From a virus: 27,318 nt of DNA. The position numbers and the translations under genes were made by a program. Positions within the stretch are counted from its first letter, which is position 1; the number at the start of each line of letters is the position of its first letter. Below, in pieces: positions 4,510 to 27,318 of the stretch. Location of the stretch: IMG/VR virus record IMGVR_UViG_3300017748_000102, positions 1-27,318 of that record, one strand, 5' to 3'. The notes under the pieces are model-generated. The model did not search any database and was not told where the DNA came from. It saw only the letters and a program-made list of their open reading frames with translations.

Positions 4510-4532
4510 TAATACCCACCATATAAGAGGAC
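4510..4532 (+). promoter_or_regulatory. T7-like phage RNA polymerase promoter opening the virion genes
   Basis: TAATAC, then CCACCATATAA, then GAGGAC. The layout (6 + 11 + 6 nt) is the same as the T7 promoter, with an identical TAATAC upstream box. The first 19 nt from the preceding T (TTAATACCCACCATATAAG) recur exactly at 26108-26126. By analogy transcription would start at G4527, leaving a 10-nt leader in which GAGG doubles as the ribosome binding site for the ATG at 4537. It lies exactly at the switch from replication to structural genes, in a non-coding gap. Confidence 0.75.
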
Positions 4533-7528: not shown

Positions 7529-7560
7529 TTAACAAAATTCTATTATCCCCAAAAAAACAG

Positions 7561-7640
7561 TAAGGCTCTCTGAGGAGAACACCCCTACCAATAAAGTAAG
7601 GCTCTCTGGAGGAGAACACCCCTACCAATAAAGTAAGGAT
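7561..7640 (+). repeat. 36/37-nt tandem direct repeat upstream of the capsid gene
   Basis: Two adjacent copies (7561-7596 and 7597-7633) of a unit beginning TAAGGCTCTCTG and ending CCCCTACCAATAAAG, differing by one extra G in copy 2. TAAGG at 7634 begins a third copy. Each copy can form a small CTCT/GGAG stem. They occupy the scaffold-capsid intergenic region (7512-7692), where T7 has promoter phi-10. The ACCnATAAAG part is loosely like the phage promoter at 4510 but lacks TAATAC. Function unknown. Confidence 0.85.
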
Positions 7641-18522: not shown

Positions 18523-20706
18523 ATGTCTTATGCACTAACTAGACTTACTGGTGACGGTAGCACCACTACATTTACTATCGGCTTTACCTACAGGGACGAG
18601 GCAGATATAATAGTTAAGGTAGATGGAGTAACTAAAACCATTACTACTGACTATACTGTTGCGGCAGGTGGTACACAAATTACATTTACATCGCCACCAG
18701 CAGATACAACTGCAATTCTTTTTCAAAGAAGCACTAGTCAAACTACAAGATTAGTAGATTATACAGCAGGGGCTGTATTCAAAGAGTCAGACCTTGATAC
18801 TGACAGTATACAAAGTTTTAATATGTCTCAGGAAGCTATAGACATAGCTAACGAATCAATGGTAGTTGACTCATCTAATAGATTTGATGCACTCAACAAA
18901 CGTATAATAAAAGTTGCTGACCCTGTAGATAACACAGATGCTGTTAACAAGCAGTTTATATCTACTAATTTACCTAATATTACCACAGTAGCGGGTATAT
19001 CCAGTGATGTTACAACTGTAGCTGGAATCTCTAGTAATGTTACAGCTGTTGCTGGGGATGCTACAGATATTGGTACAGTAGCAGGTATCTCTAGTAATGT
19101 CACGACTGTGGCTGGAATATCCAGTGATGTTACAGCTGTTGCCGCAGATGCTACAGATATTGGTACAGTAGCTACTAATATATCTGATGTTCAATCAGCT
19201 GCAAACTTACTTGCTGCTACAGTATCAACAGGTTCTCCAGGCACTGACGTTACTTACAATGGAGCTACAGGTGTACTAACAGTACCTAGAGGTGCTACTG
19301 GTGCAACAGGAGCAACAGGACCTACAGGTTCTACAGGGCCAGCAGGACCTACGGGCGCTACTGGAGCTACAGGACCTACTGGAGCTACAGGGGCTGATTC
19401 AACGGTTGCAGGACCTACAGGTCCAGCTGGACCGACAGGACCTACTGGAGCTACAGGGCCTGCTGGTCCAACAGGTGCAGCAGGTGCTGATGGTGCTGAT
19501 GGAGCGACTGGTGCAACTGGTCCTACAGGTGCTACAGGGCCAACTGGAGCTACAGGTCCAACAGGCGCTACTGGGCCTGCGGGCGCGGATGGTGTTACGC
19601 AAGATGTTTCAGGTAAAGCTAATTTAGAAGGCGGTGTTGTTTTCAACGACAGTAGTGCTGACGTAGATTTCAGAGTTGAATCTAACGGCAATGCTAACAT
19701 GTTAGTTGTTGATGGTGGAAATGATAGGGTTGGAGTCGGCACAAATACTCCTGCTGTTGAATTTGAAGTTGACGGTGGAGCATCTAATCAACCTGCTCTT
19801 ATTACATCTTCAGATGCAACTTGTAAGCTAGGACTACGAGATGACTCAACAAGTAATACTTACTCCGTTACTGTAGGCGCAGTAGGCGATAATTTAGCAT
19901 TTACGTCTGGCTCTGGTGGTAGTGAAGGTATGCGTTTAACAAGCGCTTCAAAACTTTTAATAGCCACTACTTCAGATTCAACATCTACCACCAGTTTATT
20001 TGTGGATGGTACTATTGCACACGATGGTCGAGTACTTGCTAATAGCACGGCTGGTAATGGAAGTGCGTCTGTACCAGGTATGCCTGTAGGATTTGATTAT
20101 GATACTGGGTTTTATAGACCAGCATCCAACACCATAGGTATTACAACAGGTGCAACAGAACGCATGAGAATATCGGCTGATGGCTTGTTAATTGGAAGAA
20201 CAGACGCTCTTTCTAGTGCTGAGGAACAAGGTTGCGTATTTTTCCCAGAAGGGCTGGCAATACTTGCACGAGATGGTACAGCACCTACGAGTATGATGAT
20301 ATTTGTTAGAAAAACTGACACAACCGCTGCTACGGTTGGTAGCATTCTTGCAACATCTACAGCGACAACTTATAGCACATCTTCAGACTATAGGCTAAAA
20401 GAAAATGTTAATTACGATTGGGATGCTACAACAAGACTCAAACAATTAAAACCAGCTAGGTTTAATTTTATATCAGATTCAACTGACACTGTAGTTGATG
20501 GGTTCTTAGCACATGAAGTATCCAGTGTAGTTCCCGAAGCTGTAACTGGAGATAAAGATGCAGTTTTTACTGCTGAAGATGAGGCAAATAAATTAGGTAA
20601 AGAAGGTCAGCCAAACTATCAAGGTATTGACCAAGGTAAATTAGTACCGTTACTCGTCAAAACCATACAGGAACTTGAGGCGCGTATTACTGCTCTTGAA
20701 TCTTAG
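18523..20706 (+). CDS. tail fibre: T7 gp17-type anchor, collagen-like shaft and S74 self-cleaving chaperone
   Basis: Receptor-binding fibre of ~727 aa with four modules. Residues 1-110 are the T7 gp17 N-terminal anchor ([14 protein letters not shown] ... [13 protein letters not shown]) that docks on the tail tube. Residues ~154-224 are period-10 repeats ([10 protein letters not shown], with variants GDATDIG). Residues ~257-357 are a collagen-like G-X-Y run, mainly GPTGAT, with one short break at ADSTVA. After a beta-rich region (~360-610) comes an intramolecular chaperone of the peptidase S74 type (from SDYRLKEN). Its Ser ~620 and Lys ~625 are spaced five apart, as in the endosialidase dyad, so it should trimerise the fibre and cleave itself off. 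The S74 end carries a final coiled-coil ([13 protein letters not shown]). Host range would be set by residues ~360-610. Confidence 0.95.
18979..19590 (+). repeat. repetitive coding DNA in the tail fibre (30-nt and 9-nt periods)
   Basis: From ~18979 to 19190 there are about seven degenerate 30-nt units (GTAGCTGGAATCTCTAG-like). From 19291 to 19590 short near-identical 9-nt Gly-X-Y codon triplets alternate (GGACCTACA, GGTGCTACT). Such tracts can change copy number by slippage or recombination and so alter shaft length without breaking the frame. Confidence 0.85.
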
Positions 20707-23640: not shown

Positions 23641-23856
23641 ATGAAACAAGATGAAAAACTAATAAAATTACACGATGTACTTGCTACTATTCTATTAGAA
23701 AAGGTAAAAGACCCTGAAGTTAAATCAGCAGACCTTAATGTTGCTAGGCAATTTTTAAAAGATAACGACATCACAGCTATACCTACTGATGAAAATGCCC
23801 TTGCTAAGTTACTTCAGGATTTACCGTTTCAGGAAGAAGATACACTTATGCAATAG
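23641..23856 (+). CDS. terS: terminase small subunit (T7 gp18-like DNA maturase A)
   Basis: A 71-aa protein resembling gp18-type maturases (T7 gp18 is 89 aa). The N-terminal helix KLIKLHDVLATILLEKVKDPEV is followed by SADLNVARQFLKDNDI (residues ~29-44), the conserved A-L-N-x-x-R-x-F-L-K-x-N-x-I stretch of this family. The C-terminus is acidic. It recognises concatemer DNA and stimulates the large subunit. It follows the holin by three bases, as T7 gp17.5-gp18, and is separated from the large subunit by three small genes instead of the T7 spanin genes. Confidence 0.85.
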   Translation: MKQDEKLIKLHDVLATILLEKVKDPEVKSADLNVARQFLKDNDITAIPTDENALAKLLQDLPFQEEDTLMQ

Positions 23857-24179: not shown

Positions 24180-24437
24180 ATGGCTACCTATCGCGGTAAA
24201 AAGGTTACCCTTAACAAACCCTCAAGGGTTTCTAAAGGAGAGCCAGGATACGGTAGAAAGAAGTCTAAAGTTTATGTTAAAGATGGCGCAAAGATTAAGA
24301 AAGTAATGTTTGGTGACCCTAAGATGACCATTAAGAAAAATAATAAAGCTAGACGAAAAAGCTTCAGAGCCAGACACAACTGCGATAATCCAGGACCAAA
24401 AACAAAAGCTAAGTATTGGAGTTGTAAGGCGTGGTAA
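24180..24437 (+). CDS. conserved basic phage protein with Cys/Trp-containing C-terminus
   Basis: An 85-aa protein. The second half (KKVMFGDPKMTIKKNNKARRKSFRARHNC, then NPGPKTKAKYWSCKAW) is a pattern that I recall from many unrelated marine tailed phages, including myophages, always as an uncharacterised protein. Two Cys (~residues 68 and 82) could pair or bind metal. The first half is Lys/Gly-rich. It overlaps the large terminase start by 7 nt, so packaging or virion association is a guess from position only. Confidence 0.8.
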   Translation: MATYRGKKVTLNKPSRVSKGEPGYGRKKSKVYVKDGAKIKKVMFGDPKMTIKKNNKARRKSFRARHNCDNPGPKTKAKYWSCKAW

Positions 24438-26089
24438 TTAATGAACAGTTAAAAGACTTTAAAAACTTCTTGTATTTAGCTTGGAAACATTTAACATTAC
24501 CTAACCCTACGCCTATTCAATATGATATTAGCGATTACCTACAAGATACAAGAGAACGCAGGATAGTAATTGAAGCGTTTCGTGGTGTAGGTAAATCATG
24601 GATAACATCTGCCTTTGTCTGCCACCAGCTGTTACTAAACCCCCAAGAAAACATACTGGTGGTGTCAGCATCAAAGACGAGGGCAGATGATTTTTCTACT
24701 TTTACACTGCGTCTTATACATGAAATGCCTATTCTGGCACATTTAAAGCCTAAAGATGGGCAGAGAATGTCTAAGATTAGCTTTGATGTAGCCCCTGCAA
24801 AAGCCTCGCACGCCCCTTCTGTAAAATCTTTGGGTATTACAGGACAACTTACAGGCTCTCGTGCAGGGATAATCATTGCTGATGACGTAGAATCAGCTAA
24901 TAACTCCATGACTCAGATGATGCGAGACAAGCTTGCAGAGACTATTAAGGAGTTTGAAGCCGTACTTAAGCCAGGCGGTAGAATTATCTTTCTAGGAACA
25001 CCTCAGACAGAGATGTCTATCTATAATTTATTAGACGAAAGAGGCTATAAGACACGTATATGGCCTGCCAGATACCCTGATGATAGGCTTAAAACAGCTA
25101 TGGGGTACAAGTTAGCTGCTGTTATTGCAGATGAAGCAGATAAAGAGAATCAACCTACAGACCCTGATAGGTTTGATAGCGATGACCTATTAGAGCGAGA
25201 AGCATCTTATGGTAAATCAGGGTTTGCTTTACAGTTTATGCTGGATGTATCTCTATCAGATGCAGACAAGTACCCTCTAAAGCTCAATGATTTTATTGTT
25301 ATGTCTGGTCCTAGTAGCTGGTCAGAAGCCCCTGTAAGCGTTCAGTGGGCCTCTGGTAAGGAACAAATAGACTCTGTCAAGCAGTTACCTAATTTAGGCT
25401 TAAAGGCAGACTATTGGGCTGCACCTATGAATACCGCCACGGATACAGCTAAGTGGGATGGTTCAGTGATGTCTATTGACCCTGCTGGTAGAGGTAAGGA
25501 TGAGACTGCATACGCTGTAGTTAAGATGATTAAGGGACAACTGTACCTAACAGCAGCAGGTGGCCTTAAAAATGGTTACTCAGAAGATAGCCTTGAGGTT
25601 CTCTGTAGGGTGGCTAAAGAACAGAAGGTTAATAAGGTTGTAGTAGAGAGTAACTTTGGTGACGGCATGTTTACCCAACTGCTAAAACCTGTGTTAACTA
25701 GGGTTCACCCTGTCTCTATAGAAGAAGTAAGGCATAATATCTCTAAAGAGAAGAGAATGATAGATACACTAGAGCCTATACTAAATCAACATAGACTAGT
25801 TGTAGATGATAAGGTCATATTACAAGATTACCAGTCTGAAGTAGAACTAAAGTATAAACTTTTCTATCAACTTACTAGATTAACCAGGGATAAAGGCTCT
25901 CTGATACATGATGATAGACTGGATGCTTTATCTATGGCTGTAGGCTATTGGGTAGAAACACTCGATAGAGATATACAGAAGGCTATGGATGACCATAAGG
26001 AAGATATGCTAAGAATAGAGTTAGATAAGTTTATGGAATCTTCTATAGGAAGACCCCAAAAGAGAGATAATTGGATTAATCTTAAGTAA
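24431..26089 (+). CDS. terL: terminase large subunit (T7 gp19-like)
   Basis: The 552-aa packaging motor: ATPase plus nuclease that cuts concatemers at genome ends. Walker A is FRGVGKS (residues 50-56), and Walker B is IIIADDVE (148-154). The RNase H-like nuclease domain has Asp350 (MSIDPAGRGKDE), a VVVESNFGDG strand (Glu406) and DDRLDALSMAV with Asp495/Asp498. The FRGxGKS and DPAGRG spellings are typical of T7-like terminases (T7 gp19 is 586 aa). The start is GTG at 24431, overlapping the preceding gene; TTGGAG about nine bases upstream serves as ribosome binding site. Subgroup membership suggests packaging from direct terminal repeats. Confidence 0.97.
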   Translation: MVINEQLKDFKNFLYLAWKHLTLPNPTPIQYDISDYLQDTRERRIVIEAFRGVGKSWITSAFVCHQLLLNPQENILVVSASKTRADDFSTFTLRLIHEMPILAHLKPKDGQRMSKISFDVAPAKASHAPSVKSLGITGQLTGSRAGIIIADDVESANNSMTQMMRDKLAETIKEFEAVLKPGGRIIFLGTPQTEMSIYNLLDERGYKTRIWPARYPDDRLKTAMGYKLAAVIADEADKENQPTDPDRFDSDDLLEREASYGKSGFALQFMLDVSLSDADKYPLKLNDFIVMSGPSSWSEAPVSVQWASGKEQIDSVKQLPNLGLKADYWAAPMNTATDTAKWDGSVMSIDPAGRGKDETAYAVVKMIKGQLYLTAAGGLKNGYSEDSLEVLCRVAKEQKVNKVVVESNFGDGMFTQLLKPVLTRVHPVSIEEVRHNISKEKRMIDTLEPILNQHRLVVDDKVILQDYQSEVELKYKLFYQLTRLTRDKGSLIHDDRLDALSMAVGYWVETLDRDIQKAMDDHKEDMLRIELDKFMESSIGRPQKRDNWINLK

Positions 26090-26108
26090 TTGATTTATTA
26101 TAATTATT

Positions 26109-26131
26109 TAATACCCACCATATAAGGGAGC
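26109..26131 (+). promoter_or_regulatory. T7-like phage RNA polymerase promoter, phi-OR position
   Basis: TAATAC, then CCACCATATAA, then GGGAGC. It equals the promoter at 4510 over the first 17 nt and, compared with the T7 consensus, matches TAATAC fully and GGGAG at the same spacing. It lies 20 nt after the terminase stop, as T7 phi-OR lies after gene 19. The GGGAG start is closer to consensus than in the first copy. Confidence 0.8.
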
Positions 26132-26271
26132 TAGGGAAAAGATACTATAGATAAAACTTAAGATTACTAATGTAATTAGATTTATTAACTAATAATATAA
26201 GATAAATAATAATTAATAACTATAGATGAAACCTAAAGATAACCTAAAGATAACCTAAAGAGTAACTATAC
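26132..26271 (+). promoter_or_regulatory. AT-rich leader with CCTAAAG repeats; candidate replication origin / genome-end element
   Basis: A 140-nt non-coding stretch of about 20% GC (hand count). It ends in three tandem 11-bp units, ACCTAAAGATA at 26231-26241 and 26242-26252, then ACCTAAAGAG. T7 origins are promoter plus AT-rich DNA, and T7 carries CCTAAAG arrays beside its terminal repeats. The role here is inferred from these parallels. Confidence 0.6.
26231..26262 (+). repeat. three 11-bp tandem repeats containing CCTAAAG
   Basis: Units at 26231, 26242 and 26253, the first two identical (ACCTAAAGATA) and the third ending in GAG. The final AAAGAG may act as ribosome binding site for the ATG at 26272. 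Single CCTAAAG words occur elsewhere in coding DNA (for example 2, 158, 4133, 5598 and 24749), but nowhere else as an array. Confidence 0.85.
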
Positions 26272-26484
26272 ATGACTAACGTAACTAAACTTGTGACTAA
26301 ACTAGAAGGGGAGTTTGTTAGTCTACTGAAAGATGCCGAGTCGTTAGTGCTTATAGGTAAAACTGAAGATGATATTAAGCTGATGACTAACGTATCTAAC
26401 AGTGAAGCCATTATGATTATCGAAGCAATGAAACTAGAGATGCTTAGTGCCTACCTTGACGATGTACTGGAGTCCCAGAGTTAG
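26272..26484 (+). CDS. small acidic helical protein of unknown function (gp19.5 position)
   Basis: A 70-aa protein with two predicted helices (VTKLVTKLEGEFVSLLKDAESLVLIG and SEAIMIIEAMKLEMLSAYLDDVLES). It would be the first product from the promoter at 26109. The position between phi-OR-like promoter and genome end equals T7 gene 19.5, but T7 gp19.5 is a hydrophobic 49-aa peptide and shows no similarity. No family recognised. The start has only the weak AAAGAG upstream. Confidence 0.65.
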   Translation: MTNVTKLVTKLEGEFVSLLKDAESLVLIGKTEDDIKLMTNVSNSEAIMIIEAMKLEMLSAYLDDVLESQS

Positions 26485-26805
26485 CCTAAAAGTTTTGCTA
26501 AAAAAATCTGAGGGGTATACGTATATAGTCCTGTCGCCAGAAATCCCCGTATGCCTCCCAGCGCCCCAAAAAATCAAGGGGTAGGGGTGGTATGTCACAA
26601 AAAAAGGCACGCCAGCCAGCCGTAAGCGTTGCAACTTGTCACTAGCTAACAGATAAAGTATCTATTATGTATTACTTAACAAAGTATTTTTAAAAAGTAT
26701 TTTATTGTTTAGCTTTCTTTTTCTTGTGGCCTGTTTTTTTCTTTTGACATTCATGTGTAACTATGTCAGGATGTATTCTTTGAGTAATTAATTGAGGTTA
26801 TAACA
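26485..26805 (+). other. non-coding region, probable genome-end (terminal repeat) junction
   Basis: 321 nt with no credible gene. 26508-26640 is about 53% GC (hand count), far above its surroundings. It has a GAGG..ATACG / CGTAT..CCTC imperfect inverted repeat (26509-26520 with 26549-26558) and a CCCC/GGGG hairpin (26564-26567 with 26578-26581). 26641-26805 is AT-rich with a direct repeat AAAGTATTTT (26681 area) and poly-T tracts. It separates late, right-end genes from small early-type genes. Confidence 0.55.
26744..26779 (+). promoter_or_regulatory. possible host sigma-70 early promoter
   Basis: A perfect TTGACA at 26744-26749 in the AT-rich leader before the early-type genes. The best -10-like word, TATTCT at 26774, lies 24 nt away, too far; at 17 nt stands only CAGGAT. 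Early T7-like genes need host-type promoters and this is the right place, but the match is incomplete. Confidence 0.25.
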
Positions 26806-27027
26806 ATGAGTGAAGTAAGTGAATACCATGCTTTAACTGTAGATGTCAAAAACGGCAAAACATACTGGAATCAAAGTCAAAAGGATGTAAAAGCTGTACA
26901 TGCTCATCTTAAAAGATACTGCAACAGGCATTGCCACGTTTTTATTTTCACTAAAAATAATAATGAAGATGGCGACCTTATTTTGAAAGAGCATATCAAG
27001 AACTACAACGGCAAAAGGAGCATTTAG
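26806..27027 (+). CDS. small early-type protein, unknown function
   Basis: A 73-aa protein with GAGG about nine bases before its ATG. It is rich in His, Tyr and Lys (EYHALTVDVKNGKTYWNQSQKDVKAVHAHLKRYCNRHCHVFIF), with a Cys-x-x-x-Cys (CNRHC) and several His that could bind metal. Alternating beta and helix predicted; no recognised family. First gene after the probable genome end, a place where T7-like phages keep small host-takeover or anti-defence proteins. Confidence 0.7.
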   Translation: MSEVSEYHALTVDVKNGKTYWNQSQKDVKAVHAHLKRYCNRHCHVFIFTKNNNEDGDLILKEHIKNYNGKRSI

Positions 27028-27028
27028 A

Positions 27029-27196
27029 ATGAACTCAGCACTTAGAAAACTACGCGATAAACAAAAGAAATACCAAAAGCTTAAACAAATATTATATTTT
27101 ATAGCACAACTAACAGCGTGCGCATTTGGCGCTGTAATGCTTTATATCTTTATGGTTTTAATCTTAGCGATGCAACCAGTTAACGGGGGATTCTAA
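27029..27196 (+). CDS. small single-pass membrane protein, unknown function
   Basis: A 55-aa ORF with a very basic N-terminus (MNSALRKLRDKQKKYQKLKQ) followed by a long hydrophobic stretch, residues ~21-48 (ILYFIAQLTACAFGAVMLYI and on). This implies an N-in inner-membrane peptide. It begins two bases after the preceding stop; AAAAGGAG about 11 bases before the ATG is a good ribosome binding site. Early membrane peptides of phages often block superinfection or host functions; that is inference only. Confidence 0.7.
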   Translation: MNSALRKLRDKQKKYQKLKQILYFIAQLTACAFGAVMLYIFMVLILAMQPVNGGF

Positions 27197-27197
27197 A

Positions 27198-27318
27198 ATG
27201 AATAACTGGATAACATTAGCAGAATTTGAGATAGCTAACTGTAAAGCTTCTAGTATATTTGACAAATTTTGTAAAGACAAACAAGGATGCGAGTCAGATT
27301 GGGTTGAAATAGAAGTAG
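27198..27318 (+). CDS. start of a small early-type gene (3' truncated by the window)
   Basis: Forty codons are visible (MNNWITLAEFEIANCKASSI, then Cys-containing FCKDKQGCESDWVE). GGGGGA about ten bases before the ATG is the ribosome binding site. It is a soluble, mixed-charge protein with three Cys. Too little is present to name a family. Confidence 0.6.
   Translation, partial: MNNWITLAEFEIANCKASSIFDKFCKDKQGCESDWVEIEV

Follow-up and report, generated by a model that had tools for sequence, protein, structure and literature searches.

The region following terL in the DNA stretch analyzed here, a 27,318-base virus contig (the window), probably represents the right-end (concatemer-junction) replication and packaging module of a T7-type phage. 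We favor this reading because of a phage promoter located after terL in 39 of 39 close relatives and present three times per genome, a maturation cut signature, the ends of related contigs, and the enrichment of the short motif CTWWAG. The position of the promoter, the motif, its spacing and the cut signature are all conserved, and the elements follow each other in the order described below.

The window originates from a marine T7-like podophage and has kept the T7 gene order, with a DNA polymerase fragment followed by portal, capsid, tail and terminase genes. The gene terL (24431–26089, + strand; Pfam Terminase-T7_RNaseH-like, E 5e-40) encodes the terminase large subunit or DNA maturase B, which shows 65–67% amino acid identity to proteins of Pelagibacter phages, the nearest named relatives being Eistla, HTVC031P and HTVC019P (Pelagivirus). 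The terminase small subunit TerS (23641–23856, + strand) belongs to the T7 gp18 family (PF11123 DNA_Packaging_2, E 2e-19; phrog_891, E 3e-16), and a search for solved structures of this protein found none. Downstream of terL, at the position of T7 gene 19.5, lies a gene for a protein of 70 amino acids (26272–26484, + strand) without a Pfam or PHROG match, which is kept in close relatives and absent in L022 and L028–L037. Two further repeats in the window were a 37-bp direct repeat with two copies at 7559–7638, upstream of the major capsid gene, and imperfect repeats with a 9-bp period (CTACTGGTG-like, collagen-like coding) at 19286–19578 in the tail fibre gene.

A sequence-only reading of this DNA had placed a promoter immediately after terL, and this was borne out. 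The sequence TAATACCCACCATATAAGGGA at 26109–26129 (+ strand) is a phi-OR-like site of the phage RNA polymerase type, not of the sigma-70 type, with exact copies in relatives; within the window it recurs once, at 4510 with two mismatches, and shuffled sequences gave none. Sigma-70 promoters and intrinsic terminators were rejected as candidates, as the scans gave 7 promoter-like hits vs. 7.6 in shuffles and 0 terminators vs. 1.3 in shuffles. The 39 relatives, which are those with a terL identity of ≥ 78% that could be scored, all carry a TAATA(CCC/GGG)-type promoter no more than 200 nt from the terL stop codon. Four nearly full-length relatives contain exactly three perfect promoter copies per genome, all on one strand; the gene for the phage RNA polymerase lies outside the window. 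If the region were an ordinary leader, the promoter would merely drive the 70-aa gene, which is indeed located directly downstream and conserved in close relatives. In L022 and L028–L037, however, only the promoter and repeats are found between terL and the genome end: ORFs that start in this interval upstream of the cut have at most 7 codons in L022, L028, L029 and L032–L037, and the longest one in the related pair L030/L031 has 25 codons. As the promoter stays in this clade without the gene, driving the 70-aa gene seems not to be the sole reason for its retention, and the persistence of promoter and array makes the ordinary leader, already weakened by the gene-free clade, very improbable. 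Since its position is conserved in all 39 close relatives, including the gene-free clade, the putative promoter is a good analogue of phi-OR. At least three promoter types (TAATACCCACCATAT, TAATACCCCCTCACATA, and TAATAGGGTGCATA) occur after terL among phages 80–100% identical in terL, which suggests switches of RNA polymerase specificity.

The DNA behind the promoter had been described as about 20% GC with three 11-bp units containing CCTAAAG, and both statements agree with our measurements. The GC content is 19–21% (0.186 at 26085–26224 and 0.207 at 26120–26259), and three perfect 11-bp units span 26231–26263, with CCTAAAG at 26232, 26243, and 26254. Tandem Repeats Finder (TRF) reported a single 11-bp array (26230–26266, 3.3 copies, score 65). 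The self-match run at lag 11 comprises 21 bases, a length reached in none of 2000 shuffles of the region (maximum 15) and above the maximum of 13 obtained when the whole window was shuffled 60 times; three copies of CCTAAAG likewise occurred in 0 of 2000 region shuffles. The density of the more general motif CTWWAG peaks here, with 6 sites in 182 nt, whereas no other 182-nt stretch that was sampled had more than 3. The sites form cluster A at 26145–26162 (CTATAG at 26145, CTTAAG at 26157) and cluster B at 26220–26263 (CTATAG at 26220 followed by the three CCTAAAG units), both on the + strand, and the window contains no CCTAAAG downstream of 26263. We propose that the three CCTAAAG units arose by local tandem expansion of a CTWWAG element. 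The array stands upstream of the 70-aa gene and about 240–250 bp upstream of the predicted cut.

Comparison with relatives modified the idea of a conserved CCTAAAG array. Relatives with the same gene order that lack such arrays do occur (L004–L020, L040, and L041): the exact 7-mer is present in one copy in the leaders of L004–L011 and missing in those of L012–L020, L040, and L041. What persists is the motif CTWWAG (CTATAG/CTAAAG/CTTTAG) with a spacing of 10–13 bp. We counted CTWWAG in the noncoding DNA between terL and the cut in 35 phages, dereplicated only at 40% shared 8-mers so that some shared ancestry is left in the array counts; the motif was observed 104 times vs. 19 expected (z 22). 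Its density in the end regions was 14.2 per kb, compared to 2.5 per kb in shuffles and 1.5 per kb in other noncoding DNA; CTATAG and CTAAAG were among the most over-represented hexamers of the 35 end regions. All 33 spacings below 22 bp between neighboring CTWWAG sites fell within 10–13 bp. Counts of recurring 7-mers, which assume no motif, gave 186 vs. 22 at lag 11 and 147 vs. 21 at lag 12, the values for control DNA being 71 vs. 46 and 71 vs. 43. An independent set of T7-like phages (n = 19) showed the same lags (lag 12, 92 vs. 14) and, with promoters masked, 10 CCTAAAG vs. 0.8, and LUZ100-like phages showed the same lags with other letters. A coherent 10.5-bp phasing at long range was rejected: the best periods were 12.9–13.5, with no coherence at one helical period past neighboring units, and we therefore claim no single helical period. 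The possibility that CTWWAG sites are decoy promoter cores, corresponding to the -5 to +1 core of T7/T3 promoters, appeared unlikely, since the promoters of close relatives, CATAT(A/T)AG, lack that core. The best explanation is weakened by this lack of coherent long-range phasing and by three groups of phages: six loci in which the cut signature follows 9 bp after terL have no array (L048–L050, L053, L057, and L058), the HTVC019P-like group shows no significant repeat excess in 7 of 7 loci (L119, L124, L139, L142, L143, L164, and L180), and the CTWWAG motif is absent in P-SSP7-like cyanophages. The array is thus not universally required, as the six loci demonstrate, and of the conserved end-processing element that the sequence-only reading had suggested, the place of the promoter and the CTWWAG spacing stood, but the array is missing where the cut lies that close to terL.

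This reading had also proposed a candidate packaging end element here, but the end itself is predicted elsewhere, as the cut signature AAAAATCTGAGGGGTA (26502–26517, + strand) is found about 240 bp downstream. In T7, T3, and gh-1 an equivalent of this signature directly precedes the terminal repeat, and HTVC019P has a diverged form there; the signature followed by a C-run is present in 109 of 174 loci and is far more conserved than the array. The cut is predicted after 26517, between AAAAATCTGAGGGGTA and the following T. From the cut signature, the ends of the HTVC019P record, which begins and finishes at the predicted positions, and the contig ends, we predict a direct terminal repeat of about 215 bp at 26518–26732 with bounds good to about 3 bases. 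The nearest relative, contig L003, with 95.8% identity to the window in the part following terL, has its end at the equivalent of base 26734, and L023, L031, L137, L139, L151, and L165 also stop at the right-edge element. The ends of T3 were mapped by next-generation sequencing (PMC3896407) and those of P-SSP7 by Sanger end sequencing (PMC3350473); both begin with T right after TA, matching the prediction made here. As homologous mapped ends and contig ends agree, the genome ends of the window phage are predicted at 26518 and 26732. Because the predicted repeat ends at 26732, the contig would cross the genome junction and continue, at 26733–27318, into the beginning of the left (early) end of the following genome copy. 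At its right edge, the repeat carries a putative class II-type RNA polymerase pause or terminator-like element, CCTGTTTTTTT (26730–26740, + strand), which is TCTGTTTTTTT-like and occupies the same place as ATCTGTT in T7, T3, and Syn5. The class II consensus and ATCTGTT at the T7 junction have been described (PMC11617373); compared to the class II element (ATCTGTT, with a T-run for termination), the window has GCCTGTTTTTTT and relatives have TATCTGTTTTTTT or GTCTGTTTTTTT. Cut signature, terminal repeat and pause element thus follow each other in the order of a T7-type concatemer junction (26502–26740).

This layout is that of T7 and already known. T7 and T3 share with the window the succession of terL, promoter, small gene, cut signature (AAAAATCTGA), terminal repeat and ATCTGTT-like element, as well as CCTAAAG/CTWWAG units in the interval between terL and the terminal repeat. 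The CCTAAAG arrays near the terminal repeat that had been attributed to T7 are seen in its sequence. Their position corresponds to that in the window only as far as the interval is concerned: the window array is located between promoter and small gene, whereas the T7/T3 array lies between small gene and terminal repeat, and the T7 copies, after gene 19.5, adjoin the terminal repeat and occur inside and beyond it. In contrast to T7/T3, the window has no CCTAAAG run on the left-end side or within the terminal repeat and possesses a T-run after the pause element. Pseudomonas phage LUZ100, with nanopore-mapped ends and a mapped promoter phi8 after terL, resembles the window in the order of promoter, spaced CCTCAAG-type units, cut signature AAAAATGCGAGACGGTA and terminal repeat, but is GC-rich with another unit sequence; the start of its repeat is annotated about 12 bp further inward than the predicted cut. 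Eistla, HTVC031P, and HTVC019P have a slightly diverged cut signature and the same terminal-repeat layout as the window; unlike the window, they carry a lysozyme or peptidase gene after terL, and no CTWWAG array was seen in them.

By analogy with T7, we infer roles of the module in replication, pausing and packaging. The phi-OR-like promoter would fire rightward through the leader with its CTWWAG units 10–13 bp apart, and transcription would run over the maturation cut (after 26517) and through the 215-bp terminal repeat before reaching the class II-type pause near 26730. As described for T7, this transcription might provide primers for late replication close to the genome end and carry the polymerase to the junction that TerS and TerL would cut. 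The polymerase paused at the T7/T3 junction contacts gp18/gp19, which starts maturation (PMC3276506), and plasmids containing a replication origin and the T7 junction are packaged, according to the title of Chung and Hinkle (1990) as cited in PMC4281155. Judged from these T7 parallels, the most likely roles of the module are replication of the end and marking of the junction. The array may be a rapidly changing cis element, retained because of its spacing and CTWWAG core, and would most likely provide evenly spaced protein contacts or foldback arms upstream of the cut.

Three other explanations concern the array, two of which, protein binding and foldback, overlap with the best explanation. 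The 11–12-bp units might be a mutational by-product without function, gained and lost near the ends of T7-type genomes when slippage or unequal exchange occurs as these ends are processed. Indeed, L025, L026, and L027, with 99.7–99.9% identity in terL, possess 3, 4, and 2 units, so that almost identical phages differ in unit number by steps of 11 bp, and L029–L035 vary likewise. In addition, the far side of the terminal repeat carries arrays of the same spacing with other letters, such as the separate 12-bp-period arrays of other units (e.g., CACAAGCACCAC and ACTTAGGGTATAT) observed just after the terminal repeat in relatives including L083 (Eistla), L096 (HTVC019P), and L051. However, slippage alone leaves unexplained both the CTWWAG core shared by 29 of the 35 dereplicated loci and the compensatory pairs described below, and we regard this explanation as less probable than the leading one. 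The array might instead be a pac- or cosB-like binding site, in which the ring of the small terminase subunit contacts one CTWWAG per turn and thereby marks the junction. The even 10–13-bp spacing, the T7-type TerS encoded in the window and the general rule of recognition by the small subunit (PMC3896407) favor this role, whereas some families that share the cut signature lack the array and no word is common to both sides of the terminal repeat outside T7/T3, making it unlikely. Word sharing within the same phage between the two sides gave permutation p-values of 0.058 (same strand) and 0.28 (opposite strand), strong sharing being confined to T7/T3. One sequence-specific binder acting on both sides was rejected as word sharing was not significant, and a single sequence-specific binder is disfavored because the far-side repeats differ in letters without clear word sharing.

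According to the third explanation, clusters A and B are the arms of an inverted repeat, which would fold either as a hairpin in the RNA of the phi-OR leader or as a DNA foldback serving to copy the terminal repeat; the 11-bp repeats would then be a side effect of the palindromic CTATAG units. Sister clades have two CTWWAG clusters that form stems and usually lie 52 or about 61 bp apart. The arms were compared directly, because the MAFFT alignment of the leaders was too gapped for pair counts. In 5 of 6 lineages, the inner three bases, inside CTATAG, form perfect pairs whose letters differ between lineages (GGA/TCC, GTT/AAC, GTG/CAC, AGA/TCT, ATA/TAT), only 4 of 720 arm permutations reach the pairing total, and L012, L016, L024, and L026 fold strongly. 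In the window, however, the flanking CTATAG sites are kept but the stem is lost (folding z +0.3 and +0.9), palindromic units self-fold anyway, and folding across the 35 loci was not clearly above that of other noncoding DNA (p 0.08), so that a family-wide RNA structure was rejected. G-U pairs (11.6% vs. 10.2%) were uninformative with respect to RNA or DNA. We consider the inverted-repeat explanation rather improbable as an account of the array in its own right.

Short-repeat arrays are a described feature of T7, and a hairpin-end model with DNA foldback copying the terminal repeat exists for this phage; to our knowledge, the role of its CCTAAAG repeats is not established. Tentatively, and with clear reservations, T7-type phages might share a previously unrecognized cis element between phi-OR and the cut, consisting of CTWWAG sites at a spacing of about one turn, minisatellite-like in number and used by a trans factor or a foldback in concatemer processing. 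If so, the unexplained CCTAAAG repeats of T7 would acquire a general role. The completion of the second terminal-repeat copy in T7-type phages has been described as not fully understood (PMC3350473). In the comparative set, cut site, promoter and array vary independently, with array, gene or hairpin lost, which makes the question testable. As far as the covered literature shows, the generalization to CTWWAG with a 10–13-bp spacing, the clade with promoter and array but without the gene, and the predicted ends for the group are new; our literature search, which covered mainly open-access papers, yielded no paper on CCTAAAG in T7 or on these points.

The genome ends of uncultured marine podophages appear predictable from sequence, whereas assembly alone gets them wrong. 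The cut signature and, some 30 bp into the terminal repeat, a TTTCCCCCATAGGGG-like block are common from T7 to pelagiphages and together could predict genome ends in uncultured autographiviruses. The terminal repeats of relatives such as L040, L016, and L004 also contain a TGTCAC/GCCACA-type word pair, 12 bp apart, which is degenerate in the window at about 26592–26616.
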